Of a DNA stretch of 40,695 nt, positions 10,508 through 27,061 are shown piece by piece. The stretch's first letter is position 1; each line of letters opens with the position of its first letter. Under the pieces are notes generated by a model. That model ran no database searches, had not been told where the DNA came from, and worked only from the letters and a program-made list of their open reading frames with translations. Source of the stretch: Bacteroidota bacterium (GTDB lineage: Bacteria; Bacteroidota; Bacteroidia; Bacteroidales; JADFUO01); NCBI GenBank assembly GCA_030622635.1, contig JAUXFX010000006.1, forward strand, positions 1 through 40,695. Direction: 5' to 3'. The translations under genes and the position numbers were made by a program.

Positions 10508-13111
10508 ATGAAAAAAACAATTATCATTTTTTTTGTTTTAATAAGTTTAAGCATAAATTCACATAAATCTTATGCACAGGTTGTTAATGACCTGAATGAT
10601 GTTGCAGTATGGTCATTCAACGGAGGAATAACAGAAGGATGGCATGCAGATTCTGCAATGTATGTGAACCCACAATATTGCAAAAGAGCGTGGTTTAAAT
10701 ATTCCGAGATTCCCTGTAATTATTTTGCTGATTCTACTTATAATTTGTGGACAATTCCACCTTATTTAAATAGTTTAGGTTCTTTATTTGAAGGTGGGGT
10801 TCAGTGTGCTCATATTCAACAAAATACAGGATGGCCATGTGATAATGCTTATGATGATGATCATCAACCACCTTATGAAGTGCCCGATCCTGTCTTTTAT
10901 GATTTTGCAACAAGAAATGCAAATGATAGTATTTATTGGCTGGGGAATTATACTTATCCCAAGAGCAATGCTTCAATAGCTAATGAAAATTGGCAGGATT
11001 TTTTGTTATACTGGGCTTATGAACAGATTGACGCTAATGTGAACGCGTTGGAGTTTGACCAGATAAATGCAGGATACCGTTTTACTACTACAGGAACTCC
11101 TGATAATAATTCAAATGACGGCTATGATGATTATGCAATTGGTACAGCAAATTTTGCTACTAAGCTCTCAGTAGTATGTGAACACGGGATAATTGACCCG
11201 ATTGAGTGGTTTATGCCAACAGATTCAGCAAGTTCTAATAATGATTCTGCTTTTTTTGCTTTTGATGATAATAATGAAACATACTGGCGCTCATCCTTTG
11301 CGGGAAGTCATTGGATTGAGATAGATTTTGGGCGGATACGGACAATTCAACAGGTTTATTTAAAATTTCCTTCTGTTCATATACCTAATAATTTTGAAAT
11401 TACATACTGGAATGGAAATATCTGGCAAAATTTCAATCCACATATATCTTTTACAGGAAATACCGATTCTATCTGTTCATTTTTGATAGAACCTGCTCAG
11501 GCAACAAAGGTTCGTCTTTCTTCAACTGATAATGAAATATGGGTTTATGAAATACAACTTTTTGGTCAGGGATTCAGACAGTATCTTTTAAAAAAATACT
11601 GCGATAGCTTAGGTTGGTCTGTTAATGATTCGCTATGGGAAACAGAAAAACTTGTTATTCTGTCAGATACTTCTGTCTGTCCTGATGGCACAATGAATAC
11701 TTTCAAATATCGCAAATATCTGCAGACACATGGCTGGTCAGGCAATCCATTTGGTACGAATATTACTTTTTTAAATTATCTCAATCCTGTTAATCCGCTC
11801 TTTTGGGATTGGTGTCCGACAAAATATATAAATGGACTATTATTTCCTTTTTTCGCTGATACAAATATATTTGATACTATTGTGATGTTACATTCAGCTT
11901 CCTATTCATACCAAAGAACATACCCGAATTTTTGGTTTCCTGCTATGGATAGCGTAAGAACTTATGCAGCAAATCTTGGGAAAGATGTTTATGTAGCACG
12001 CAACGGATTTTTTAATCCAGGTAATGAAGATTACTTATTAGCTCCATTAGGTGATCACCCAATTTTTCCTGTATATAATGCACCATCGCCTACGGATTCA
12101 AACAAGGTTCTATTAGATGGCTTTCAGGCACGCATCAATATATGGAGATTGTTAAAGGAATATACGGTAAACTCAATGGGACAGGATGTTCCGCTTGTAG
12201 CATTTTGCGATTTTGCAGACCACCTGCCTTTTGCTCATCTCGGAGGTATTGATGAACCTGCTGACCAGAGAGCAATATATTTGCGAACTTATCCGATGGA
12301 AATGTATGCGGCAGGTGTAAATTTCTGCTATCCGGTAGTTGTGCCTTATTATATTGCCTGGTGGGATTCAACATCCTATGATATTGCAATTATAGAGATT
12401 ATTAAACAACAGACGGATTTTCTTAATGCATATAAGGAAATTTATCGTGATGTAAATATAAATAGCGAAGAATTAGAAGTAACAGTTAATGGAATTGTAC
12501 CGTTTAATGGTGAATGGAACTGGCAGGATTGGAGAATTAGCTGCCCGGTGAATGACTCCAAAGTTACAATTGCTTATATGGATAAAGACAGCAGTAATTT
12601 TTCTTATCTTCACATCATAAATCACAATTGGGACAGCATAAACCGTGTAATGCTACCGCAATATAATGTTTCTGTTTCCATTCCCGTAACCGACAATTGT
12701 GAAAATTTAATGCTCGTTTCACCCGATTTTGCTGATACACTTTATCCTGCATTTTCTTATAATGCTGATACAATAAATTTTACAATGGATACTTTAAAAT
12801 ATTATAATGTAATAATTCTTGTTTTTACTGATACTACTACATCAATTAATGAAAATCAAATATTACCGGAAATCAATATATCTATTTATCCGAACCCAAC
12901 AAACGGAATATTTACTATTGAAGGAAAAGATATTCAATCCATTGTAATTACAAATATCAGTGGGCAAGTTGTTTATGACAGAAACCTTCAAGGTTTTAAA
13001 AACCTTGAAGGTTTAATTCAGGTTGATTTAAGTAAGCAGCCGAAAGGAATTTATTTTGTTAAAATCCAAACTAATGATTTAATAAAAACAGAAAAAATAA
13101 TAATTCAATAA
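10508..13111 (+). CDS. Secreted discoidin (F5/8 type C)-containing putative glycoside hydrolase with T9SS type A sorting domain
   Basis: Signal peptide; SHWIEIDFGRIRTIQQVYLKFP...KVRLSS discoidin-like segment; C-terminal ISIYPNPTNGIFTIEG...GIYFVKIQTNDLIKTEKIIIQ. Full-length paralog of 19708-22317. Confidence 0.75.
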   Translation: MKKTIIIFFVLISLSINSHKSYAQVVNDLNDVAVWSFNGGITEGWHADSAMYVNPQYCKRAWFKYSEIPCNYFADSTYNLWTIPPYLNSLGSLFEGGVQCAHIQQNTGWPCDNAYDDDHQPPYEVPDPVFYDFATRNANDSIYWLGNYTYPKSNASIANENWQDFLLYWAYEQIDANVNALEFDQINAGYRFTTTGTPDNNSNDGYDDYAIGTANFATKLSVVCEHGIIDPIEWFMPTDSASSNNDSAFFAFDDNNETYWRSSFAGSHWIEIDFGRIRTIQQVYLKFPSVHIPNNFEITYWNGNIWQNFNPHISFTGNTDSICSFLIEPAQATKVRLSSTDNEIWVYEIQLFGQGFRQYLLKKYCDSLGWSVNDSLWETEKLVILSDTSVCPDGTMNTFKYRKYLQTHGWSGNPFGTNITFLNYLNPVNPLFWDWCPTKYINGLLFPFFADTNIFDTIVMLHSASYSYQRTYPNFWFPAMDSVRTYAANLGKDVYVARNGFFNPGNEDYLLAPLGDHPIFPVYNAPSPTDSNKVLLDGFQARINIWRLLKEYTVNSMGQDVPLVAFCDFADHLPFAHLGGIDEPADQRAIYLRTYPMEMYAAGVNFCYPVVVPYYIAWWDSTSYDIAIIEIIKQQTDFLNAYKEIYRDVNINSEELEVTVNGIVPFNGEWNWQDWRISCPVNDSKVTIAYMDKDSSNFSYLHIINHNWDSINRVMLPQYNVSVSIPVTDNCENLMLVSPDFADTLYPAFSYNADTINFTMDTLKYYNVIILVFTDTTTSINENQILPEINISIYPNPTNGIFTIEGKDIQSIVITNISGQVVYDRNLQGFKNLEGLIQVDLSKQPKGIYFVKIQTNDLIKTEKIIIQ

Positions 13112-13121
13112 GAATGGAACC

Positions 13122-15509
13122 ATGAAAACTATCATTATAATATTCAGTATATTGTTGTTTGGTTCACAGGTTTTTGCACAGTGCAATATCCCAAATCCGG
13201 GTTTTGAAAATTGGGGAACAACTTATCCAACCGGTTGGACACCTATTCATCCGTCAGACAGTACTGCCATTTCTAAAACTACTGATGGTCATACTGGAAA
13301 TTATGCCGTAAAATTCGATACTTCATCAACTTTTACCGGTCTTGTAACAGGAGTTTTTTTGTGTACTGATAAACCTGCAAACATGCAGGGCTATTATAAA
13401 ATGGAAGGAAACGATACATTGACCGTTGTTGTTACGCTTACCGATGCTTTGTTGAATACAGTAGCTGTAGGTGCAAAAATCATGGTTGCCCCATATCCCG
13501 TATATACCAAATTCAATGTTTACATGGAATACGAACCGGTTGCAAATCCTGTTTATGGATTCGTTACAATAATCGCGGCAGGCAGTGGAACTATTTATGT
13601 TGATGATTTATCGTTTAATGGAACGATTTTAACACCTGAAATTGATTCTATCCCAATGCGCGATACCATGAAACTGGCAGCAGATATTTATCTCCCTAAC
13701 GAAACAGATACATTTCCAACCATTTTAATACAGACCCCTTATAACAGAAAAATCTATCGTTCAACAGGCTTGCCATTAAATATTGACTTTGATGTTGCGT
13801 CAAGTGATTATGCTTTTGCAATTGCCGACTGGCGATGCTTTTATGGTTCTGCAAATGCCTGTGTGCCAAATGTTACTATTCAAAAAAGAGGTGAAGACGG
13901 TTATGATATTATTGAATGGATAACACAGCAACCATGGTCTGACGGACAAGTTGGAACTTACGGTGGTTCGGCTGTCGGGAAAATTCAGTATTATACTGCA
14001 AAAGAACAACATCCTGCCCATATCTGTGCCGTACCGAAAGTTACAGGAACAGCTACAAATTATTTTACTTATTTTCCTGGTGGAGCATTAAGAACAGAAT
14101 ATCTTGAAACTCTTGATATTCTTGGATATGGTACATCTGCTATGGTATTGGGGATAGATTCAAACAGGTTTTACAATAATATGTGGCAATATGCCGAGGA
14201 CATTGGATTTTTTCCTGAAATGATCAAAACAAAAATGTTTTTGATTGGCGGATGGTACGACCATAATACTGAAGATGTTTTAGAATGGTACGACAGCTTA
14301 CGCGTATATTCCGATATTTCTGTCAGGGATGAACACAGGTTATTGTTCGGGCCATGGACACACGGGGGGGTTACGACAACAGGTTTGGGAAATGCAATGC
14401 AAGGGGAAATTGATTATTACGAAGCTGAAAACTACGATGATTCCCTTGCCTTGCAGTTTTTTGATTATTATTTAAGGGAACAAATCAACGACTGGGAAAA
14501 CATGCCTGATATTCTATATTTCCAGATGGGGGAAAACACATGGAACCCTGCAACAAATTGGCCTCCCGATTCTATCAATGATGTAATGTTTTATTTACAT
14601 GCTGATGGAACAATAAATGGTGATATACCTGTAAATACTTCCGATAAATTAACAATTGCTTATAATCCCGAAGACCCTTCGCCTACATGGGGCGGATCAA
14701 CATTGAGATATGATTTGTTGCAGGGACCTTTTGACCAATCTTATATGGTTGAGAACAGAAATGATATTTTAGTTTTTTCAACACCTGTTTTAACCAATGA
14801 TGTTGTAATGAAAGGAAATGCAATAATAAATCTGTATGTTTCTTCCGATAAACTGGATACTGATTTTGTTGTCCGTTTAACCGATGTTTATCCTGATGGA
14901 AAGTCCATGTTATTATTGGATGATGGAATTCAAAGAATGCGTTTTCGCAATGGTTACAGGGTTACGGATACCCTGATGATGACACCCGTAAGCATATATC
15001 CGATAACAATTGAATTGCCGAATACAGCGATTACTTTTTTGGAGGGTCACCAAATACGAATAGATGTTACTTCATCAAACTATCCGCGGTTTAACAGGAA
15101 CATGAATACCGGTGGGGATATGTACCCGAACCATAACGGCGATACCCTTGTAAATCCCCTTGTTGCCACAAATACAGTTTATTGCAATAGTTTATACCCT
15201 TCCAATGTTGTTTTGCCCTTAAAAGGTTATTGTACTGAAATAAATGAAAATGAACATAAAAACACCGAACTTGATTTTCTGATTTATCCAAATCCAACAA
15301 CAGGAATGTTTATAATTGAGGGTGCAGGGATTAAAAATATTGAAATTACAAATATCAGTGGGCAAGTTGTTTATGACAGAAACCTTCAAGGTTTTAAAAA
15401 CCCATCTGATGAATATAGGGTTGATTTAAGTGAGCAGCCGAAAGGAATTTATTTTGTTAAAATCCAAACTAATGATTTAATAAAAACAGAAAAAATAATA
15501 ATTCAATAA
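13122..15509 (+). CDS. Secreted CocE/NonD family hydrolase with N-terminal PCMD-like domain and T9SS sorting domain
   Basis: IPMRDTMKLAADIYLPNETDTFPTILIQTPYNR, VGTYGGSAVGKIQYYTA (Ser motif), LIGGWYDH, LLFGPWTHGG. N-terminal region NPGFENWGTTYPTGWTP...CTDKPANMQGYYKMEGNDTLTVVV. C-terminal IYPNPTTGMFIIEG. Confidence 0.85.
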   Translation: MKTIIIIFSILLFGSQVFAQCNIPNPGFENWGTTYPTGWTPIHPSDSTAISKTTDGHTGNYAVKFDTSSTFTGLVTGVFLCTDKPANMQGYYKMEGNDTLTVVVTLTDALLNTVAVGAKIMVAPYPVYTKFNVYMEYEPVANPVYGFVTIIAAGSGTIYVDDLSFNGTILTPEIDSIPMRDTMKLAADIYLPNETDTFPTILIQTPYNRKIYRSTGLPLNIDFDVASSDYAFAIADWRCFYGSANACVPNVTIQKRGEDGYDIIEWITQQPWSDGQVGTYGGSAVGKIQYYTAKEQHPAHICAVPKVTGTATNYFTYFPGGALRTEYLETLDILGYGTSAMVLGIDSNRFYNNMWQYAEDIGFFPEMIKTKMFLIGGWYDHNTEDVLEWYDSLRVYSDISVRDEHRLLFGPWTHGGVTTTGLGNAMQGEIDYYEAENYDDSLALQFFDYYLREQINDWENMPDILYFQMGENTWNPATNWPPDSINDVMFYLHADGTINGDIPVNTSDKLTIAYNPEDPSPTWGGSTLRYDLLQGPFDQSYMVENRNDILVFSTPVLTNDVVMKGNAIINLYVSSDKLDTDFVVRLTDVYPDGKSMLLLDDGIQRMRFRNGYRVTDTLMMTPVSIYPITIELPNTAITFLEGHQIRIDVTSSNYPRFNRNMNTGGDMYPNHNGDTLVNPLVATNTVYCNSLYPSNVVLPLKGYCTEINENEHKNTELDFLIYPNPTTGMFIIEGAGIKNIEITNISGQVVYDRNLQGFKNPSDEYRVDLSEQPKGIYFVKIQTNDLIKTEKIIIQ

Positions 15510-15551
15510 CAATTTTACATTGACGGAAGCTAAATATTAATTTAATAAACC

Positions 15552-17492
15552 ATGAAAAAAATATATTTATTAATACTATCTCTAAGCATATCGTTTCTGT
15601 TAAACGCACAAAATCTAATTGTTGGCTATTTTGATCCTAATGAAGAAATAACTATTACAAATACTACTGTCCAGTATGATACAGTTTATATTATTAATAA
15701 TGGGAAGTTGTCAGTTGATAATTCTGCTTTTTATATTAACAATCTTTTAGTAAATACTGATTCGGGTGAATTAAGCATTAAAAATTCTCATTTAAATGCA
15801 AACGGAACTATTATTTTTTATGGCAACAGCACAACAATATTAAAAGACAGCCTAAATTTAAAATGTAATATTACTGTAGGCGGTAATGCTTGCTTAGCTA
15901 TAGACAGTGCAATAGTAGATGCAGAAATGTATTATGTCGGGCAGTATAATTTAATAGGTGTTGACAGTTCGGAATTTCATATCACCAACTCTGTTTTTTC
16001 TCTAAGTTCAGGAAAATATGATGTTTTTTTTATTGACAAATCATCTTTTTATCAATCAAATACAAAATATAATAACTCTATTGGTATTGCTATGACACTT
16101 GGCATTGGAAATAACGCTACATTAAATATTGATGATTGTTCAGGCGGAATGGAATTAATAATTTCCGACTCTTCAAATATATGGGTTAATAACACAAATT
16201 TATTAGTTCTCTGGTTTAGCTTTTTAGAAAATGCTTATGCTAATTTTGAATTACCTGCACAAAACTCTCAATTTCCTTATGCAAGTGATGTTTCTGAATA
16301 TTATTTTTCCGATTCATTAAGTAATGTTACAAATGTCTATTATAATTTAGAATTACACAATACTGATACTGTTTTTTGGGGTATAATGCAATATTCAGGC
16401 TCAGATATAACGTTAAATAATTCTGTTGTTTTGGCTTGTGGCTTTCCTTTTAAAGGTTCTGTAACTGATACTGTTTATGATTTTTTTAATGATTCTCTTT
16501 ATTCATCTTATACTGCTCCTTTGTCTGACCGAAATTTCTCTATAACAAATACATTAATACAGGCATGGAATTTTTACCCTATGGACACAAGTTCAATAAC
16601 AATAAGAAACTGTGTTTTTGGAGAATTATTAAGCTTTAATAACTCTACCGCTTTTGTTGAAAATAGTATATGTGATGGTACCGGTGGATATTTTGGAGCA
16701 GAAAATAACAGTAAAATATATGTAAATAACTCATTTATTCAACGTTTATATCCGGGTTTTTCAATAATACTAACTTCTGATAGCTCTGAAATATTTATAC
16801 AAAATTCTGAAATTCAAGGAGATGTTACTCTTGTTAATTCATCAAAAATTTATTGTAGTAACACAGTATATAATTCAGTACCAATAGTTAACAATAGTTC
16901 TTATTTTCTTAATACCTTTGTTGACTCTATACCAAATGCTTATATTGATTCAACAGTAAATTTAAGCGGTTCAATATTTGATATAAAAGGAATTAGCAAT
17001 AATGATATTATTACAGGTTACAAACTTGAATTTTCAGATACTCAAACAACAAATTTTTTAGAAATTATTGATACAAACTATACTCCATATATTCAAAACA
17101 GTTCTATTTACAATTGGAACACATCCGGTATATCACAGGGAAGTTACATTTTACATTTAACTACTTATATAAATGGGGATTCTATTATTACATCACAAAG
17201 AAATATTTTATTAGAAAATATTAGTTTTATCAATTCAGAAAAAAACATACATAATGGCTTGATAAATATTTTCCCAAACCCAACAAGCGGAATTTTTACA
17301 ATTGAGGGAAAAGATATTCAATCCATTGAAATAACAAATATTAGTGGGCAAGTGTTGTATTATTCATATGATGACTCCAAGTCATCTGATGAATTTAGAG
17401 TTGATTTAAGGAAGTATTCAAAAGGGGTTTATTTTGTGAAAGTACAGAGTAAATATAACATTTCAACTAATAAAATATTACTAATAGAATAA
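15552..17492 (+). CDS. Secreted parallel beta-helix-like protein with T9SS sorting domain
   Basis: Repetitive short NSxxxxxNxS units through the body (DNSAFYINNLLV, KNSHLNANG...). C-terminal INIFPNPTSGIFTIEGKDIQSIEITNISGQ...GVYFVKVQ. Confidence 0.65.
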   Translation: MKKIYLLILSLSISFLLNAQNLIVGYFDPNEEITITNTTVQYDTVYIINNGKLSVDNSAFYINNLLVNTDSGELSIKNSHLNANGTIIFYGNSTTILKDSLNLKCNITVGGNACLAIDSAIVDAEMYYVGQYNLIGVDSSEFHITNSVFSLSSGKYDVFFIDKSSFYQSNTKYNNSIGIAMTLGIGNNATLNIDDCSGGMELIISDSSNIWVNNTNLLVLWFSFLENAYANFELPAQNSQFPYASDVSEYYFSDSLSNVTNVYYNLELHNTDTVFWGIMQYSGSDITLNNSVVLACGFPFKGSVTDTVYDFFNDSLYSSYTAPLSDRNFSITNTLIQAWNFYPMDTSSITIRNCVFGELLSFNNSTAFVENSICDGTGGYFGAENNSKIYVNNSFIQRLYPGFSIILTSDSSEIFIQNSEIQGDVTLVNSSKIYCSNTVYNSVPIVNNSSYFLNTFVDSIPNAYIDSTVNLSGSIFDIKGISNNDIITGYKLEFSDTQTTNFLEIIDTNYTPYIQNSSIYNWNTSGISQGSYILHLTTYINGDSIITSQRNILLENISFINSEKNIHNGLINIFPNPTSGIFTIEGKDIQSIEITNISGQVLYYSYDDSKSSDEFRVDLRKYSKGVYFVKVQSKYNISTNKILLIE

Positions 17493-17502
17493 AGAAGTTG
17501 TT

Positions 17503-19698
17503 ATGAAAAAATTAATATTATTTGGATTTTTCATATTAATACTGACAACAATTGGAAAACCACAAATTAATAATACATCAGTTGAAACAATAAACGGAGT
17601 ACCAACAATTTGTTTAAATAATCAGCCATATAATATTAGCGGATGGACAGTAGCCACACTTGGAGGATATTGGGAGCTTTCGGCAAATGAAATAATACAG
17701 GAAATGGACTCTGTCAAAAATCAGGGATTTGAAGTTGTGGAATTTCTTGTTCCATGGCAAAAAATAGAATGGTTTAAAGATCAATACGATTGGTTAAAAA
17801 TTGACTCATTAATGGAATATGCAGAAACAATTGAGCTGTATAGTATTATTCAAATAGTTGCAACAATAGCACCGCCATGGTTTGCAGACACATTTTATCC
17901 TGATGCGGTTTTCACAACTTATGATCCGGATTCTGCTATACACACAGGAGAAATGTGGGGAAGACTTGCTATACAAGGTGAAGGTTCTTTCCCAATATTC
18001 TATCATCCCGGATATTATGAACAAATTGATACTTTTATTGTAAATATAATTAATCGTTATAAAAACCATCCTTCATTATTTGGATGGACATTAGGGCTTT
18101 GGTTCACTGGCGAATATAATTATCCCGGTGCCGGTTATGGTATTGCAGGATTTGCCGATTATTCACCTTACACAGAATCGCTTTATGGAACACAACCACC
18201 ATATCCGCTAAACATGTTTAGCCAATCAAGCCCTGATACACGTACCGAATGGAATGAATGGACAAAATTCAGAATAGAAAAAAAACGTGAAACACTCCAA
18301 CATTTTGCCTCTTATGTAAAATCGCTTGACCCTGATCATATTCTTATCGGGTATCCGGGTGGCGGATTATGGGGCGAATTAGATAACGGATATATTTCGG
18401 AAGTGGTCGGAATGGATTACGTTTCAATGTTGATGAATCCTGACATTGATGTGATAAGAGGCGCTCCGCAAGTTTCTGAAAATCTATTTTGTGTTATTAA
18501 TAATGAAATTTCATTAGTTCCTTACCTGATGGTAGCAAATACACAGGCAAGTTATCGAAACGGAAAGCCATGTGTTTTACAAAACGAACGAAGTCTGGAT
18601 ACAACATCTTTAACTCAGGAAATTATTATATGGTCAGAATATCACAAATCTCTTGGTTGCGATTTATTATGGTGGGAAGAGCCGGACTCAAACAATATTT
18701 CGGGCAACTGGTCAACATCAGAAAAAGCAGAGATAGGAAATACCAGGAACATTTCAGACCTTCCGAATATTTCTGCATTAACAAAATCAGATTTTGCATT
18801 TATTGACCTACCTTTTGAAATTGGCAAATATTACACTGATAGCACATATAGCCTTATGTTTGCAATGAAACAGGTAAAAGCATTTATGGATGCCGGGCTT
18901 CCTTTTGATTGTATATCAGAAGAAGAAATACTGGAAAATCCTTCTGTTTTGAATTCCTATAAAGCAATTGGTTTTCTTTTTCCTGATATGTATAATTTAT
19001 TAGCTCCGGATACATTAAAGGATATTATCTCAAATTATACAGGAGCAATATGGAATGGAAGTCCTTTAGATGGTTATTTATATTATTTAAGCGAATATTC
19101 CGACACTAATTACCTCAATACACTTCGTTTATTTTATGATACCAACAATCTTATCAGAAATAATTATACCGGTCATTTTGTTTATATAGCAGGTAATAAG
19201 CCATTTGTTTTTATGTTATCAAGAGATAATAATTTTTCGGGTAATATTGAAGTTAATATTAAAGGATGGGGTTTAGCAAATGGCAATTATATTTTTATGG
19301 AGTATAATACAAGTACAAACTACTCTGTTTCTGTTAATAATGATATAGCAATATTCTCTATAAACTTGAGTCCACAAGAACCTTGTTTATTTACATTGGA
19401 TACTTTGACTGATATTGAGAAAAATGATTTATCTGATTCTTTTCTTACAATTTATCCTAATCCAACAACAGGAATATTCACAATTAAAGGAGAAAACCTG
19501 TCTGCCGGACAGGTAGGCATTCAATCTATTGAGATTACAAATATCAACGGGCAAGTTGTTTATGACAGAAACCTTCAAGGTTTTAAAAACCTTGAAGGTT
19601 TAATTCAGGTTGATTTAAGCAAGCAGCCAAAAGGAATTTATTTTGTGAAAATCCAGAGTGGTGATTTTATCAGCATAAAGAAAATTGTGATTCAATAG
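17503..19698 (+). CDS. Secreted GH42-like (beta-galactosidase-type) TIM barrel protein with T9SS sorting domain
   Basis: QEMDSVKNQGFEVVEFLVPWQKIEWFKDQYDWLKIDSLMEYAETIELYSIIQIVATIAPPWF...NRYKNHPSLFGWTLGLWFTGEYNYPG...GCDLLWWEEPDSNN. C-terminal IYPNPTTGIFTIKGEN. Confidence 0.72.
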   Translation: MKKLILFGFFILILTTIGKPQINNTSVETINGVPTICLNNQPYNISGWTVATLGGYWELSANEIIQEMDSVKNQGFEVVEFLVPWQKIEWFKDQYDWLKIDSLMEYAETIELYSIIQIVATIAPPWFADTFYPDAVFTTYDPDSAIHTGEMWGRLAIQGEGSFPIFYHPGYYEQIDTFIVNIINRYKNHPSLFGWTLGLWFTGEYNYPGAGYGIAGFADYSPYTESLYGTQPPYPLNMFSQSSPDTRTEWNEWTKFRIEKKRETLQHFASYVKSLDPDHILIGYPGGGLWGELDNGYISEVVGMDYVSMLMNPDIDVIRGAPQVSENLFCVINNEISLVPYLMVANTQASYRNGKPCVLQNERSLDTTSLTQEIIIWSEYHKSLGCDLLWWEEPDSNNISGNWSTSEKAEIGNTRNISDLPNISALTKSDFAFIDLPFEIGKYYTDSTYSLMFAMKQVKAFMDAGLPFDCISEEEILENPSVLNSYKAIGFLFPDMYNLLAPDTLKDIISNYTGAIWNGSPLDGYLYYLSEYSDTNYLNTLRLFYDTNNLIRNNYTGHFVYIAGNKPFVFMLSRDNNFSGNIEVNIKGWGLANGNYIFMEYNTSTNYSVSVNNDIAIFSINLSPQEPCLFTLDTLTDIEKNDLSDSFLTIYPNPTTGIFTIKGENLSAGQVGIQSIEITNINGQVVYDRNLQGFKNLEGLIQVDLSKQPKGIYFVKIQSGDFISIKKIVIQ

Positions 19699-19707
19699 GA
19701 GGTAATT

Positions 19708-22317
19708 ATGAAAAAAATAATTATTCTTGTTTTAATAAATTTTTTAATTGGAATTACACAACCAGTTTCAGCACAGGTTGTTAATGACCTGAACGATGTC
19801 GCGGTATGGACATTCAATTTTGGAATATGGACACAGGGAGAGGCAATAGAAGCAACTTATGTTAATCCACAGTATTGTATCAGAGGCTGGATGAAAACAG
19901 CAGCAGTTCCATACAATGCTTATACCGATCCACAATATAATCTTTGGACTATACCTCCAATTATGAATGATAATGGTACATTGTTAGAGGGAGGGGTTCA
20001 GGTTTCGGAAATTTGGCCTTATGCCGGCTGGCCTTGGGACAGCCCTTACGATGATGATCATCAGTTTCCTTATGAGATACCGGACCCTGTATTTTATGAT
20101 TTATCTACAAGAAATACAGAGGACAGTATTTACTGGCAACAAATGGCGAGTGATTCATTAATCACTTTTGTTAATATAGCAAATGAAAATTTTCAGGATT
20201 ATCTTATTTGTGCTTCATACCAGCAAATAGATGCAGGTGTTAATGCACTTGATTATGACGGTATTTCCGGTGCAGAGAGATTTAGTCCTTATGCTGTGCC
20301 CGGAAATAACGCAAATACAGGATACGATGATTATCATTTGGGAACAGCAAATTTTACAAACAAACTCTCAATGGTGTGCAACTCTGATACAATACTATAT
20401 TTTATGCCAATTCCAAATGCAGATTCTGAAATGGATTCTGCAAAATATGCCTTTGATGATGATCTGTCAACTTACTGGATTTCCGAAACAGGTAGCAGTC
20501 ATTGGATTGAGATAGATTTTGGCAGAATTAGAACTGTTCAGCAAGTTTATATTTTTCTTGATACAAATTATATTCTCAATGATTTTTCTATTAAATATCA
20601 AAATGACACAACAACTGATTGGGTGGATTTTACACCTGCAATAGACATAACAAATAATACTGATCCTACAAAATCATTTTTAGTTGAACCTGTTGCAACT
20701 TCCAAAATAAGATTATTTTCAACTGATACACAAGTTTATTTGCCTGAGCTGCAAATTTTCGGGCAAGGTTTCAGGCAATTTTTACTAAAGAAATATTGTA
20801 TAGATTCAGCATGGACTGCTACGGATTCACGATGGGAAACAGATAAACTTATAAGTTTTGCCGATACCAACCAATGCCCTGATGAAACAATGAATTCTTT
20901 TAATTATCGCAATTATTTACAATATCATAACTGGACTTACAATCCATTTGGTGGAAATATAACTCAGAGCAATTTCCTTAATCCGCCCAACCCATTATTT
21001 TTTGACTGGTTACCGGTAGTTTATTTATACAGGTTATTTCCACATTTTATGAATGATAGTACAATGTTGGATAACTTTAGGAATCTGTTTAGTAATTCAT
21101 ATTCACATCAAACAATATCTTTATTTTGGAATCTTATCCACGATAATGTTACAAATTATGCAGCCAATCAAGGAAAAACCATTCACCTTACTTATGGTTT
21201 AGCCGGAACTAATTTAATTAATGGAGACTGTGATTATATACTATATTATGTATGGGACAATGTTATATTTCCGGTTTATTCTGCTCCAACAGCAAGTGAT
21301 ACCTTGAAGACCCATTTAAATGGTAGTCAGGCTCAAATTAATTCATGGCGGCTTATACACGAAGTTTGTACATCAGGACATCAAAATGATACTCTTCCTG
21401 TTGTGGCATTTTTAGACCATGGTTTTGGTTATATGCCTTTCTCCCACTTGGGAGGAAATGATGAACCAGCAGATGAGAGAACAGAATTTTTAAGAACATA
21501 TACATGGGAAATATATGCCGCAGGTGTAAATTTCTGTTTTCCTGTAAAATATCCCGGATGGAGAGCGTTAAATGATACCGCATCCGATGGAACACCAGTA
21601 ATAGAAACCATTAAATTATGTGCAGATTTTCTTAATGTTCACAAACATATATATCGCAATGTAATCATAAATAATTTTGAACAAGAGGTAACGGTTAATG
21701 GTGTTATCCCATTTAACGGTGAATGGAACTTAGTTGGGGGCAGCATTATTTCACCTGTGAACGACTCCAAAGTTACAATTTCTTATATGGACAAAGATGA
21801 CGGCACAAAATCCTATCTTCATATAATCAATCATAACTGGGATAGCATAAACCATCAGATGATACCACAGTATAATGTTCCTGTTTCCATTCCTGTAACC
21901 GACAGTTGTGAAAATTTAATGCTCGTTTCACCCGATTTTGCTGATACACTTTATCCTGCATTTTCTTATAATGCTGATACAATAAATTTTACAATGGATA
22001 CTTTAAAATATTGTAATGTAATAATTCTTGAGTTTACCACTACTACATCAATTAATGAAAATCAAATATTACCGGAAATTAATATATCTATTTATCCGAA
22101 CCCAACAACAGGAATGTTTATAATTGAGGGTGCAGGGATTAAAAATATTGAAATTACAAATATCAGTGGGCAAGTTGTTTATGACAGAAACCTTCAAGGT
22201 TTAAAAAACCTTGAAGGTTTAATTCAGGTTGATTTAAGTAAGCAGCCGAAAGGAATTTATTTCATTAAAATCATGAGTAATAATATTATAAGTGTGAAAA
22301 AAATTATTATTCAATAA
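19708..22317 (+). CDS. Secreted discoidin-containing putative glycoside hydrolase with T9SS sorting domain (paralog of 10508-13111)
   Basis: Collinear similarity along the full length: AQVVNDLNDVAVWTFN, NPQYC, YDDDHQFPYE(I/V)PDPVFYDLSTRN, GSSHWIEIDFGRIRTVQQVY, AHLGGxDEPADxR, YAAGVNFC. C-terminal IYPNPTTGMFIIEG. Confidence 0.75.
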   Translation: MKKIIILVLINFLIGITQPVSAQVVNDLNDVAVWTFNFGIWTQGEAIEATYVNPQYCIRGWMKTAAVPYNAYTDPQYNLWTIPPIMNDNGTLLEGGVQVSEIWPYAGWPWDSPYDDDHQFPYEIPDPVFYDLSTRNTEDSIYWQQMASDSLITFVNIANENFQDYLICASYQQIDAGVNALDYDGISGAERFSPYAVPGNNANTGYDDYHLGTANFTNKLSMVCNSDTILYFMPIPNADSEMDSAKYAFDDDLSTYWISETGSSHWIEIDFGRIRTVQQVYIFLDTNYILNDFSIKYQNDTTTDWVDFTPAIDITNNTDPTKSFLVEPVATSKIRLFSTDTQVYLPELQIFGQGFRQFLLKKYCIDSAWTATDSRWETDKLISFADTNQCPDETMNSFNYRNYLQYHNWTYNPFGGNITQSNFLNPPNPLFFDWLPVVYLYRLFPHFMNDSTMLDNFRNLFSNSYSHQTISLFWNLIHDNVTNYAANQGKTIHLTYGLAGTNLINGDCDYILYYVWDNVIFPVYSAPTASDTLKTHLNGSQAQINSWRLIHEVCTSGHQNDTLPVVAFLDHGFGYMPFSHLGGNDEPADERTEFLRTYTWEIYAAGVNFCFPVKYPGWRALNDTASDGTPVIETIKLCADFLNVHKHIYRNVIINNFEQEVTVNGVIPFNGEWNLVGGSIISPVNDSKVTISYMDKDDGTKSYLHIINHNWDSINHQMIPQYNVPVSIPVTDSCENLMLVSPDFADTLYPAFSYNADTINFTMDTLKYCNVIILEFTTTTSINENQILPEINISIYPNPTTGMFIIEGAGIKNIEITNISGQVVYDRNLQGLKNLEGLIQVDLSKQPKGIYFIKIMSNNIISVKKIIIQ

Positions 22318-22324
22318 AATAATT

Positions 22325-24685
22325 ATGAAAAAAAAGATTTTTTACGGTATCTCATTATTCTTGTTAATAATGATACATTTTTCATTAAGTAATAATTTGA
22401 ATGCTCAAAATTGGGAAACGATTGGTCCCTGGGGTGGGGACAGGCATTTTATCTGCCTTCATCCTAATGACACCAATATTGTTTTGGTAGGTGGAGCAGG
22501 AGGTTTCATTCACAGAACGAATAATGGCGGTGGCTACTGGGAAAGTCTGGCACCTGATTCCCTTCTTGGTTCAACAAATGTTGAGGCAATCCTTATTCAT
22601 CCTGATTATCCCGATACAATTCTGTGCGGTGCTAATCCTCTTGGCATCTATAAATCATATAATAATGGAATTACATGGCATAAAAGAAATACCGGTTTAA
22701 TGTCTGTTAATGTAACAAGTTTGTTAATAGCCCCTGATAATCACCAAAAGGTTTATGCGGGATTCGTTACTTCACAGGGACAGGTAAGCGATGGTGGAGT
22801 ATATGTGTCTGATAATTTTGGTGAAACATGGACTCCGATGAACAACGGACTTGGGTTAACTCGTGTAACAAGACTGAATATTGATAAAGACGGGAAATTA
22901 TATGCAGCTACTTATGGTGAAGGCTTATCTGTTTACAATGATTCATTAGCCGTATGGCAAACCATTTTTTACGGTAGCGACAGTTTAATTACTACAGTTG
23001 AACCACATCCTTATTGTCCTGACACAATCATTGTCGGTACTTATAAAAATTGGCTATACAAATCGGTTGACGGAGGGGGTAATTGGCAACAATTGCCAAT
23101 ACCAGCAGAAATAGGAACCGACACAGCCGCAGTATGTTATGATATTGAATACGACCGTCAAAATTCGGATTTGATATGGACGAGCTTGCACGTTGCTCAT
23201 GAACTGCCTTTTTATTCAACTACCTTAAATAGTGGAGATGGTATGTTTTATAGTTTAGATGGCGGAAATATCTGGTATAAACGTGGATCAGGATTTACTC
23301 AAATAATTATTGATGAAAGGTCTTCTTTAACGCAAGACAGTTTCCCTCAACGTTCAAGTATTATGTATTCTACAGGAGGAGGTGGACATGCTATTCGGAA
23401 ATCAGAAAATGGCGGATTGTCTTTCGAGCCGGCAGTTATGGGTATTAATGGTGTATATGTTAATATGGTTATGATAGACACTTACGGCAGAATTTTTACC
23501 GGAGCCGAAAAAGGATTTGAAATATCGCGTAACAGGGGAAATACATGGAAACAGATTATCTATATGCAAACACCTTTTGAAAGGGTTGGGTATAAATGGC
23601 ATATCAATATTGATCCGCAGGACAGCAGCATCTTGTATTGTTCGAAAGGGGAATTTGCTCATTATATCCCTGATGGAAAGGGTCTGTTTGTAGCTAATAT
23701 CGTTAACAACACAGGAGCGAGGGTGTCAGGAACATTTGGTATTGGTGTTTGGAAATCGCTTTGTGGCAACACCTGTGATACTATATTTATGGCAACCCAA
23801 TCGCATGGGGTTTGGAAAACAACTGATAACGGAACAAGCTGGGCAGAACTGGCTTACGGTCTCGATGAATTAAGTGTAACCGATATTTATATTTCACCTC
23901 AATCCGGTAATTTACTGTATTGTACAACACGGTCTGATTCAGGTATGCATTGGTCTGCCTGTATTTCTTATGAAGAAGGTGGTTTTTATAAATGGGATGA
24001 GCAATTGCAAAGCTGGGAAAAGAAAATAAACGGCATGACATTTCCTGCTGCAATTTCACAAATGCAGGTTAACCCGCAAAACGATTCTATTGTTTATATT
24101 TCTACATTTGCACATGGAGTTTACAAAACAACCGATGCAGGCGAAAATTGGATAAATATTAGCCCGCAGGGAGTGAATAAAATTTATTCAATTGCTGTTG
24201 ACCCCACTAACTTTGATTATTTGTATGCAGGAACAGCAAGAAAAGGAGTACATGCTACTTTTAACGGAGGACAAACATGGAATGATCTTAACGGTAATGG
24301 ATTAACAAATGTAGTTATCAATTATATAGCAGTGGATCCTGTCCACAGGGATACACTGTATGCAGCAACTCTTGGTGGAAGTGTGTTTAAAACACACGTT
24401 GATACCGTAATTATCAATATCAATAAACAAATACATGAAACTGAAAAGATAATTATTATTTATCCAAACCCAACAACAGGAATATTTACAATTGAAGGAA
24501 AAGATATTCAATCCATTGTAATTACAAATATAAGCGGACAAGTTGTTTATGACAGAAACCTTCAAGGTTTTAAAAACCTTGAAGGTTTAATTCAGGTTGA
24601 TTTAAGTAAGCAGTCGAAAGGAATTTATTTTGTAAAAATTCAGAATGATGATTTTATTAGTGTAAAGAAAATAATTTTTAATTAA
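22325..24685 (+). CDS. Secreted BNR/sortilin-like repeat protein with T9SS sorting domain
   Basis: Repeated sialidase-like Asp-box/VPS10-type motifs (TNNGGGYWESL, SYNNGITWHKRNTG, SDNFGETWTPMNNGL, TDNGTSWAEL, TDAGENWINI, FNGGQTWNDL). C-terminal IYPNPTTGIFTIEG. Confidence 0.85.
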   Translation: MKKKIFYGISLFLLIMIHFSLSNNLNAQNWETIGPWGGDRHFICLHPNDTNIVLVGGAGGFIHRTNNGGGYWESLAPDSLLGSTNVEAILIHPDYPDTILCGANPLGIYKSYNNGITWHKRNTGLMSVNVTSLLIAPDNHQKVYAGFVTSQGQVSDGGVYVSDNFGETWTPMNNGLGLTRVTRLNIDKDGKLYAATYGEGLSVYNDSLAVWQTIFYGSDSLITTVEPHPYCPDTIIVGTYKNWLYKSVDGGGNWQQLPIPAEIGTDTAAVCYDIEYDRQNSDLIWTSLHVAHELPFYSTTLNSGDGMFYSLDGGNIWYKRGSGFTQIIIDERSSLTQDSFPQRSSIMYSTGGGGHAIRKSENGGLSFEPAVMGINGVYVNMVMIDTYGRIFTGAEKGFEISRNRGNTWKQIIYMQTPFERVGYKWHINIDPQDSSILYCSKGEFAHYIPDGKGLFVANIVNNTGARVSGTFGIGVWKSLCGNTCDTIFMATQSHGVWKTTDNGTSWAELAYGLDELSVTDIYISPQSGNLLYCTTRSDSGMHWSACISYEEGGFYKWDEQLQSWEKKINGMTFPAAISQMQVNPQNDSIVYISTFAHGVYKTTDAGENWINISPQGVNKIYSIAVDPTNFDYLYAGTARKGVHATFNGGQTWNDLNGNGLTNVVINYIAVDPVHRDTLYAATLGGSVFKTHVDTVIININKQIHETEKIIIIYPNPTTGIFTIEGKDIQSIVITNISGQVVYDRNLQGFKNLEGLIQVDLSKQSKGIYFVKIQNDDFISVKKIIFN

Positions 24686-24703: not shown

Positions 24704-27061
24704 ATGATGAAAAAAAATATTTTTATTTTAATCGCATTATCGGTAATTGCACAAATGGGCATTTGCCAGGGATTTTATGATGTAAACACCGTGAACACCA
24801 TTGAAATTGTTTTTACCGAACCCGACTGGGATGAAATCCTGGACAGTTTGTATGCAGCCGGAGATGAAGAACGTCTCGTGGGAACGGCAATTATCAACAA
24901 TGTGCAGTACGATAGCGTTGGCGTTAGATACAAGGGCAACAGTTCTTACAATCCCCATCAAATAAAAAATCCGCTGAACATAAAATTGGATCATATCATT
25001 GATGATCAGCTATTGGATGGTTATGGCACTTTAAAACTGGCGAATGGTTTTAAAGACCCCAGTTTTGTAAGGGAAGTCCTTAGTTATGAAATTGCACGAA
25101 CATATCTGCCGGCGAGTAAAGCCAATTTCGCTAATGTATACATCAATGGTGATTTGACAGGATTATATTCAAGCATTCAAAGTGTTGACAAATTTTTTAT
25201 GAACACTCATTTTAATCCTGATGAAGATATTCGGTTTAAAGGAGAATTAAGCTGCGGTCCTCAACCGGTTGTAGTCTGGGGTTATTTTGATTCCGATTCA
25301 AGTTCTTATTATAACTTTTATGAACTGAAATCCGATTATGGCTGGAACGAACTTGTAAACTTCCTGGATATTTTAAACAATAATACTGAAGAAGTTGAAA
25401 CAGTTTTAAATGTTGACAGGCATTTATGGATGCTGGCATTTGATATCCTGATGATAAATTTGGATGCTCCCGTGAACTTTGGCCATAATTATTATTTGTT
25501 CAAAGACGGTTCGCATCGGTTCAATCCCGTTCTCTGGGACCTGAACGAGAATTTCGGTGTGTTCAGGAGGTTGATTGGCGGAGGACCTTTAACCATACAA
25601 GGGATGCAACATCTTGATCCCTTCCTGAATATTTCTCATCCTAATTATCCTATTATTAATAAAATACTTCCTGACCCGACTTATCGCAGAATGTATGTTG
25701 CTCATATGAAAACCATTATAGAAGAATATTTCTCGAATAACCTGTATTTAACCAGAGCGTTGGACATTCAGGATATTATTGACGAAAGTGTTCAGGCAGA
25801 TCCCAATAAATTCTATTCTTATAATGAATTTTTTAATAACATTTATAATCAGGTAGGATATGGACCTCATGCAATTGTTGGTATAACACAGCTAATGGAA
25901 GAAAGGGTTCCTTTTCTTTTGAACCACCCCTTGTTCCAGGAAACACCACCGGTTATTTCTAATATTGCTAATACACCTGTAATGATAATACCAAATACAA
26001 CGGTATGGTTTTCTGCTGAAGTTGAAGATGCAGAAATTGTTATTCTTGGCTACAAACAGAATATAAACGGGAAATTTGAAAAGACAGAGATGTTTGATGA
26101 CGGCAATCATAATGACGGAGCTGCAGGAGATGGAATATACGGGGTTTCAATTATTGCCGGTTACAACGATATTCAATATTATATTTATGCGGAAAATGAT
26201 GATGCCGGAATATTTTCTCCCGTCAAGGCAGAATACGAATTTTATTTTCTTGATGTGGTGTATGAAACTGCTAATGTGGTTATAAATGAGATAAACTATA
26301 ATTCTTCAGAAGATTTTGATCCTGAAGACTGGGTTGAATTTTATAATCCGGAAAATGATGATATTGATATTTCGGCTTGGTACTTTAAGGATGAAAATGA
26401 TGATCATATCTTCACATTTCCTGCAAATACGATCATTGAAGCAGATGGATATCTTGTCCTGACCAAAGATTCCATAGCTTTCTCAAGTTTATTTCCTGAT
26501 GTGTATAATTTCATCGGGGATATGGATTTTGGTCTGAGTGGCGGAGGTGAATTAATCCGGCTTTATGATTCCGTGGGTATAATAGTCGATTCACTAATTT
26601 ATGATGATGATGAACCCTGGCCTACAGAACCGGATGGTAACGGGCCAACCCTGGAATTGATAGATCACACGCTCGATAATACATTGCCGACAAGCTGGGC
26701 AGCTTCCTGTGAACATGGAACACCGGGAACTATAAACAGTACAGTATCAATAGAAAATTATGAGATAACAACAGCTGTAAGTGGGGAATTATATCAAAAC
26801 TATCCAAACCCATTCAATTTTTCAACAACGATTTCGTATAATCTTACTACAAACGAACATAGTAACCCAAAGATAGAAATCTATAATATAAAAGGGCAGA
26901 AAATACGAACTCTTAATGGTAATCCTAAACTTGTCAAAGGGTCTGTTGTCTGGAACGGCACCAATGAAAACAATCAAGCTGTCTCATCAGGAATATATTT
27001 TTATCAATTGAGAACAGAAAAATATTTTTCCCAAACAAAACGAATGATGCTTTTGAAATAG
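24704..27061 (+). CDS. Secreted CotH-type kinase family protein with lamin-tail domain and FlgD-like/T9SS C-terminus
   Basis: CotH-like VGVRYKGNSSYNPHQIKNPLNIKLD...FKDPSFVREVLSYEIARTYLPASKANFANVYINGDLTGLYSSIQSVDK...WDLNENFGVF; lamin-tail VVINEINYNSSEDFDPEDWVEFYNPENDDIDISAWYFKDENDDHIFTFP; C-terminal LYQNYPNPFNFSTTISYNL...IYFYQLRTEKYFSQTKRMMLLK. Confidence 0.87.
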   Translation: MMKKNIFILIALSVIAQMGICQGFYDVNTVNTIEIVFTEPDWDEILDSLYAAGDEERLVGTAIINNVQYDSVGVRYKGNSSYNPHQIKNPLNIKLDHIIDDQLLDGYGTLKLANGFKDPSFVREVLSYEIARTYLPASKANFANVYINGDLTGLYSSIQSVDKFFMNTHFNPDEDIRFKGELSCGPQPVVVWGYFDSDSSSYYNFYELKSDYGWNELVNFLDILNNNTEEVETVLNVDRHLWMLAFDILMINLDAPVNFGHNYYLFKDGSHRFNPVLWDLNENFGVFRRLIGGGPLTIQGMQHLDPFLNISHPNYPIINKILPDPTYRRMYVAHMKTIIEEYFSNNLYLTRALDIQDIIDESVQADPNKFYSYNEFFNNIYNQVGYGPHAIVGITQLMEERVPFLLNHPLFQETPPVISNIANTPVMIIPNTTVWFSAEVEDAEIVILGYKQNINGKFEKTEMFDDGNHNDGAAGDGIYGVSIIAGYNDIQYYIYAENDDAGIFSPVKAEYEFYFLDVVYETANVVINEINYNSSEDFDPEDWVEFYNPENDDIDISAWYFKDENDDHIFTFPANTIIEADGYLVLTKDSIAFSSLFPDVYNFIGDMDFGLSGGGELIRLYDSVGIIVDSLIYDDDEPWPTEPDGNGPTLELIDHTLDNTLPTSWAASCEHGTPGTINSTVSIENYEITTAVSGELYQNYPNPFNFSTTISYNLTTNEHSNPKIEIYNIKGQKIRTLNGNPKLVKGSVVWNGTNENNQAVSSGIYFYQLRTEKYFSQTKRMMLLK

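Follow-up and report, generated by a model that had tools for sequence, protein, structure and literature searches.

The window considered here is a stretch of 40,695 nucleotides, one of the 279 contigs that make up the 3.13-Mb draft genome of a Bacteroidota bacterium. It carries six consecutive plus-strand genes (10508-24685) that each end in a type A T9SS sorting domain by matches to TIGR04183/PF18962, and the locus raises the question of why one loop of this C-terminal domain (CTD) should be spelled by palindromic DNA. Open reading frames and domain matches describe gene 1 (10508-13111) as a secreted protein of 867 aa with an F5/8 type C domain, gene 2 (13122-15509) as a CocE/NonD (S15) hydrolase, gene 3 (15552-17492) as a CTD protein of 646 aa, gene 4 (17503-19698) as another that also has a glycosyl hydrolase 42-like match and gene 6 (22325-24685) as a Sortilin/BNR-type protein. 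Gene 5 (19708-22317) was identified as a paralogue of gene 1 by gene to gene comparison. Gene 7 (24704-27061, plus strand) encodes a CotH protein; its CTD is of another kind and lacks the palindrome, which makes it an internal control. No match to an Rfam RNA family was obtained in the window.

The loop follows the residues GQVVYD and reads NLQGF/LKNLEGL. It is encoded by the perfect 33-bp palindrome AAACCTTCAAGGTTTT-A-AAAACCTTGAAGGTTT, with 16-bp arms around a 1-nt centre, in frame on the plus strand in gene 1 (12982-13014, NLQGFKNLEGL), gene 4 (19569-19601) and gene 6 (24556-24588), and by a central variant with 15-bp arms in gene 5 (22188-22220), all as placed by the first-pass annotation. 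The solitary first arm described for a further gene was likewise present in gene 2, as the left part AAACCTTCAAGGTTTTAAAAACC (15380-15402, plus strand). Eighteen matches to the half-motif with at most two mismatches occurred in the window relative to 0.10 expected from shuffles. Arms of at least 11 were found four times among the 152 sorting domains of the genome, always in the window copies, where synonymous recoding gave 0.1, and chance palindromy was rejected on this basis; other sorting domains do not encode the loop with the motif.

The exact family-1 33-mer was also found outside genes on four other contigs, and a wider template recovered nineteen elements in the genome, in which variants were compensated with full pairing kept (cores TCA/TGA, GAC/GTC and ACG/CGT; outer positions AAT/ATT and AGA/TCT). 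The intergenic versus coding count suggested earlier was run on 580 kb of the genome (85% coding) and gave 27 palindromes outside ORFs and five inside, four of the five being the window CTDs. Since the exact 33-mer also lies between genes, the loop is spelled by a repeat scattered over the genome and did not arise as a coding accident. The first-pass reservation that the motif might occur nowhere else in the genome is answered by these intergenic copies; the other, that the same loop is spelled elsewhere with non-palindromic codons, is answered by the remaining sorting domains, which do not encode this loop with the motif.

The limits of the element were examined in 79 distinct contexts. Flanking positions carried no more than 0.15 bit and the centre base was evenly A, C, G or T, so that the element is exactly 33 bp, or eleven codons. 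A GT[AG]G foot was present at none of 158 element ends, no CGTC tag was seen at the borders in these contexts and no target motif was found in the flanks.

Gene 3 carries a different palindrome in the same loop. The inverted repeat GATGACT-CCA-AGTCATC (17370-17386), noted in the first-pass annotation and unremarkable when judged on arm length alone, proved to be the core of a second 33-bp element whose perfect form, ACTCATCCGATGACTTCAAGTCATCGGATGAGT, has the same 16+1+16 bp geometry as family 1. Family-2 copies, some of them perfect, were located at intergenic sites on five contigs, and the fourteen fixed core bases occurred five times in the genome relative to about 0.01 expected by our own arithmetic from genome length. 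The gene 3 copy, YSYDDSKSSDEF (17362-17394, plus strand), is in frame and worn, with 27 of 33 bases the same as in the family-2 form. In gene 2, the family-1 left part is followed directly by a right part matching family 2, CATCTGATGAAT (15403-15414, plus strand), and by its sequence this loop is a chimera of both. The gene 3 copy and the gene 2 chimera therefore indicate that two unrelated families have occupied one loop, which bears out, for these two families, the earlier proposal of unrelated palindromes at a single site.

In an AlphaFold2 model the palindrome residues N87-L97 sit between strands 82-87 and 98-101; the input was only seven sequences, and the sorting domain was confidently modelled while the upstream part was not. 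The best fold match of the model was a T9SS substrate complex (8glk_D, E 5e-5). The interval from a conserved G to GIY spans 26 residues, within the usual 21-27, and the element therefore fills or replaces the loop instead of adding eleven residues to it. The proposal of in-frame dispersed palindromes in sorting domains stands, but the element does not clearly lengthen the loop. Alignment with other CTDs, suggested as a check for a clean insertion, did not bear one out: in same-genus genomes the best CTD match outside the window reached 49% identity, not close enough to serve as an orthologue and define an empty site, and the CTD on contig C103 was rejected as a clean empty site on account of its divergent loop. 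That CTD, the closest to those of the window, carries CAATTATCAATTGACAATGAACAATTTACAATTG in the same loop in a double-hairpin layout (L132, 3125-3158); this may be a third worn repeat, and no further copy of it was present in the stretches examined.

Repeats were also observed in other sorting-domain loops. Gene 4 has a 24-nt in-frame segment resembling an inverted repeat, AACCTGTCTGCCGGACAGGTAGGC (19495-19518, plus strand, NLSAGQVG), in another CTD loop, which is absent from its paralogues. Two sorting domains on contig C162 carry in-frame repeats of the GTTTCAGGTTTCA type (KFQVSSFRFQV; L076, 16305 and 18851), which are also found outside genes, and three more contain the inverted repeat CCCCCTCAATCCCCCCAAATGGGGGG (PPSIPPNGG) or a near variant in another loop (L143, 464; L148, 1166; L135, 5457).

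Fourteen of 59 close relatives contained the template, as did 54 of 396 genomes across the phylum. In named genomes the exact 33-mer had 91 occurrences, of which 82 fall outside ORFs (taken as at least 150 residues). All nine copies within ORFs use one frame, xNLQGFxNLEGL; a second frame, read from the sequence, is also free of stops, so stop avoidance alone cannot explain this bias. Genes hosting the element in frame included those for IleRS, an RlmI-like protein, IcmF, type I and type IIG/ISP restriction enzymes, a SpoIIE-type phosphatase, SprB adhesins and RAYT. The secretion-signal domain, which the first-pass annotation took as the special target, is therefore not one, as copies in relatives are mostly intergenic and those in frame lie in many unrelated genes. 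In IleRS the copy accounts for 14 residues inserted with respect to PDB 8c8w; when the RlmI-like and IcmF hosts were aligned to PDB structures, no clean insert of 11-12 residues emerged. Two related HsdR genes, with 92.5% identity in the region of the site, differ in that only one has the element and is there a net 30 nt longer, and the flanking bases of the filled and empty sites differ too.

Several further observations concern the relatives. The exact 33-mer occurs in records of Candidatus Parabeggiatoa and Halobeggiatoa, Beggiatoa-like Gammaproteobacteria, at four loci among others and with one copy in frame in a kinase/ATPase gene, reflecting either horizontal transfer or a binning error. 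A single SprB-repeat protein of genome G050 has three in-frame palindromes (L188; 1029, 1260 and 1710). Left and right half-units assort freely in genome G042, where four of 33 were matched relative to 8.3 expected at random, which suggests half-site exchange. Half-unit hairpins were significant in some families only.

A candidate mobilising enzyme was found at two palindrome loci, each containing a gene for a small HUH protein that is similar to TnpA_REP (PDB 4er8) and matches NF047646 REP_Tyr_transpos at 56-69 bits, below the cut-off of 80. A search of 294 genomes of the order found relatives of this RAYT in 84, and a palindrome lay beside or inside the RAYT gene at 23 of 29 loci. Palindrome density was 4.45/kb within 120 nt of RAYT and 0.084/kb elsewhere, a 53-fold enrichment obtained by searching with the RAYT found beside palindromes. 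The flanking palindromes had a modal size of 33 bp, their sequence varying by genome and their geometry remaining constant, and nine instances lay within the RAYT gene itself, typically in frame after the HuH motif. Y1_Tnp matches were present in all 14 palindrome-bearing relatives compared to 46 of 59 overall. The best Y1_Tnp match per relative was mostly without flanking palindromes, probably because these top matches are mainly another RAYT/IS200 type. The RAYT relative in the genome under study (contig C109) had no palindrome with arms of at least 12 nearby; the RAYT link for the window families thus comes from relatives, and the mobiliser may have been lost or left unassembled.

Other RAYT loci displayed features of their own. 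Flanking the C109 gene is another repeat, GAAATGGAATGTTT / AAACATTCCATTTC. The palindrome occupies the post-HuH loop of RAYT at a dozen loci from many genera, one of which (L349) retains the peptide of the palindrome rather than the palindrome. A type I restriction operon in genome G013 (L170, contig C242, 89-2548) has a RAYT gene between hsdS and hsdR and seven copies of a 33-bp palindrome of the AAACGTGTTAGG family, two of them in frame, in RAYT and in hsdR, with two further in-frame copies downstream along hsdR. In genome G038 a different RAYT is flanked by TTGCCGTAGGCTTCAGCCTACGGCAA palindromes that contain GTAG (L209, 1108-1430).

These results are probably best explained by REP-like 33-bp elements dispersed by a RAYT, or TnpA_REP-type HUH transposase, with two families reaching one CTD loop. 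The identity of the loop DNA with dispersed intergenic elements, the geometry, the frame bias, the RAYT association in relatives and the position of the loop in the model were observed and support this reading. Counting against it are the missing GTAG foot, the lack of these palindromes near the RAYT relative on contig C109, the flanking differences at the HsdR site and the CTD comparison, which showed no clean insertion. An HUH enzyme would process single-stranded palindromes and paste them elsewhere, and RAYT would in this manner disperse two inverted half-units of 16 nt with a random base between them, mostly to the 3' flanks of genes. Rare copies may survive in ORFs at surface loops, as eleven codons with the open frame xNLxGFxNLxGL specify a loop-like peptide. 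Two families would then have reached the same beta-hairpin loop in one lineage of T9SS sorting domains, after which the family-1 copy would have multiplied as a CTD cassette copied onto neighbouring genes, with one gene becoming a recombinant of both families. We infer that RAYT moved the elements, that events took this order and that secretion tolerates the loop or is neutral to it.

It is improbable, though the best surviving alternative, that the intergenic palindromes are bidirectional terminators or stabilisers of mRNA ends which spread by recombination without a transposase, the CTD copies arising by accidental recombination with one of them. Such a role fits the position of about 29 of 73 intergenic sites (those with a gene end in reach) within 31 nt 3' of a stop codon, as well as the strong folding of the element as DNA (z about -6.5). 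It does not fit the enrichment of palindromes at RAYT genes with genome-specific sequence matching, or the identical 33-mers shared in frame by genes that are unrelated and belong to distant taxa, and it leaves the exact 33-bp borders and the random centre unexplained.

We also regard as unlikely a functional role for the palindromes as recombination points that move CTD cassettes between the genes of the cluster. The last 220-280 nt, the CTD module, were the only DNA common to genes 1-6 in BLAST comparisons, the pair of genes 1 and 5 excepted, and gene 2 is chimeric inside the loop, as such a role would have it. However, CTD similarity continues beyond the palindrome in either direction, which ordinary duplication or gene conversion suffices to explain, and comparable clusters were not observed around the other genes that carry palindromes.

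The same pattern bears on the number of events. The CTD DNA around the family-1 copies is near-identical while most gene bodies are unrelated, and it is therefore most likely that the window copies descend from one event and spread with the module. By our count there were two independent arrivals in the window and one in the relative G050, a CTD of which (L189) carries a pair of elements in frame, one of them in the corresponding loop.

Selfish elements of the Rickettsia RPE type, whose coding potential is maintained for insertion into genes, are a very unlikely source. Both kinds of element share in-frame residence in loops or linkers of unrelated protein-coding genes, with one conserved peptide frame here, but RPEs are about 150 bp and tagged with CGTC (PMC3733652), whereas the elements in this study are 33 bp, untagged and mostly intergenic, which largely excludes membership. 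Coincidence, in which a conserved loop peptide happened to acquire palindromic codons, gains something from the five copies sharing one context and hence not being independent, but it is refuted by the exact 33-mer between genes elsewhere and has further against it the recoding result for the 152 CTDs and the second family in the same loop.

Under the RAYT reading, REP-type DNA is translated, strictly in one frame, as part of an essential synthetase, of restriction enzymes and of secretion tags. It is possible, and put forward here tentatively, that 33-bp REPs without a foot form a class served by a RAYT clade of its own and act as donors of protein loops in Bacteroidota. They would repeatedly supply both cytoplasmic and secreted proteins with a ready-made, frame-compatible loop of eleven residues (NLxGFxNLxGL), and the T9SS loop would be a recurrent site at which REP families are interchangeable. 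This little-studied clade and its repeat lacking the GTAG guide make guide-free recognition testable, and with the T9SS loop nature has provided a way to assay the tolerance of the sorting machinery. For annotators, an 11-residue NLxGFxNLxGL in a Bacteroidota protein is probably mobile-element DNA.

With regard to known systems, the window domains have the C-terminal TIGR04183/PF18962 matches and the CTD fold of T9SS type A sorting domains. REPINs are inverted REP doublets, and the elements described here resemble them in comprising two inverted half-units but differ in that the halves are not separated by a spacer and a conserved tag is lacking. At 33 bp in all they fall short of MITEs, which measure 70-300 bp (PMC3733652) and are bounded by terminal inverted repeats and a target duplication. 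In-frame REPs are already known: RPEs and GTAG/CGTC REPs have been described within ORFs (PMC3733652), and REPs in frame, including within tnpA_REP, were reported by Quentin et al. 2018 (PMC6006769), where those of TnpA_Y1 subclass 2.4 have a GT[AG]G foot. A footless 33-bp class, or REPs in T9SS sorting domains, were not encountered in the open-access literature searched. The RAYTs in this study (NHFH, LF[QE], YIHxNP and an SSY extension) are closer by motif to subclass 2.1, in which Quentin et al. 2018 (PMC6006769) found no REPs, than to 2.4. Compared to REP/RAYT systems (REPtrons; TnpA_REP, for example of E. coli, PDB 4er8), palindromes similarly lie mainly beside genes and flank a RAYT with matching sequence, the latter in relatives and not for the RAYT of the genome itself. 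The differences are a fixed, near-perfect 33-bp geometry, a random centre, frequent in-frame residence and no GTAG/GTGG foot, whereas the TnpA_REP enzymes studied need or prefer GTAG. RPEs had been offered as the nearest parallel, but the RAYT flanked by palindromes and its similarity to NF047646 and 4er8 place the REP/RAYT system closer.
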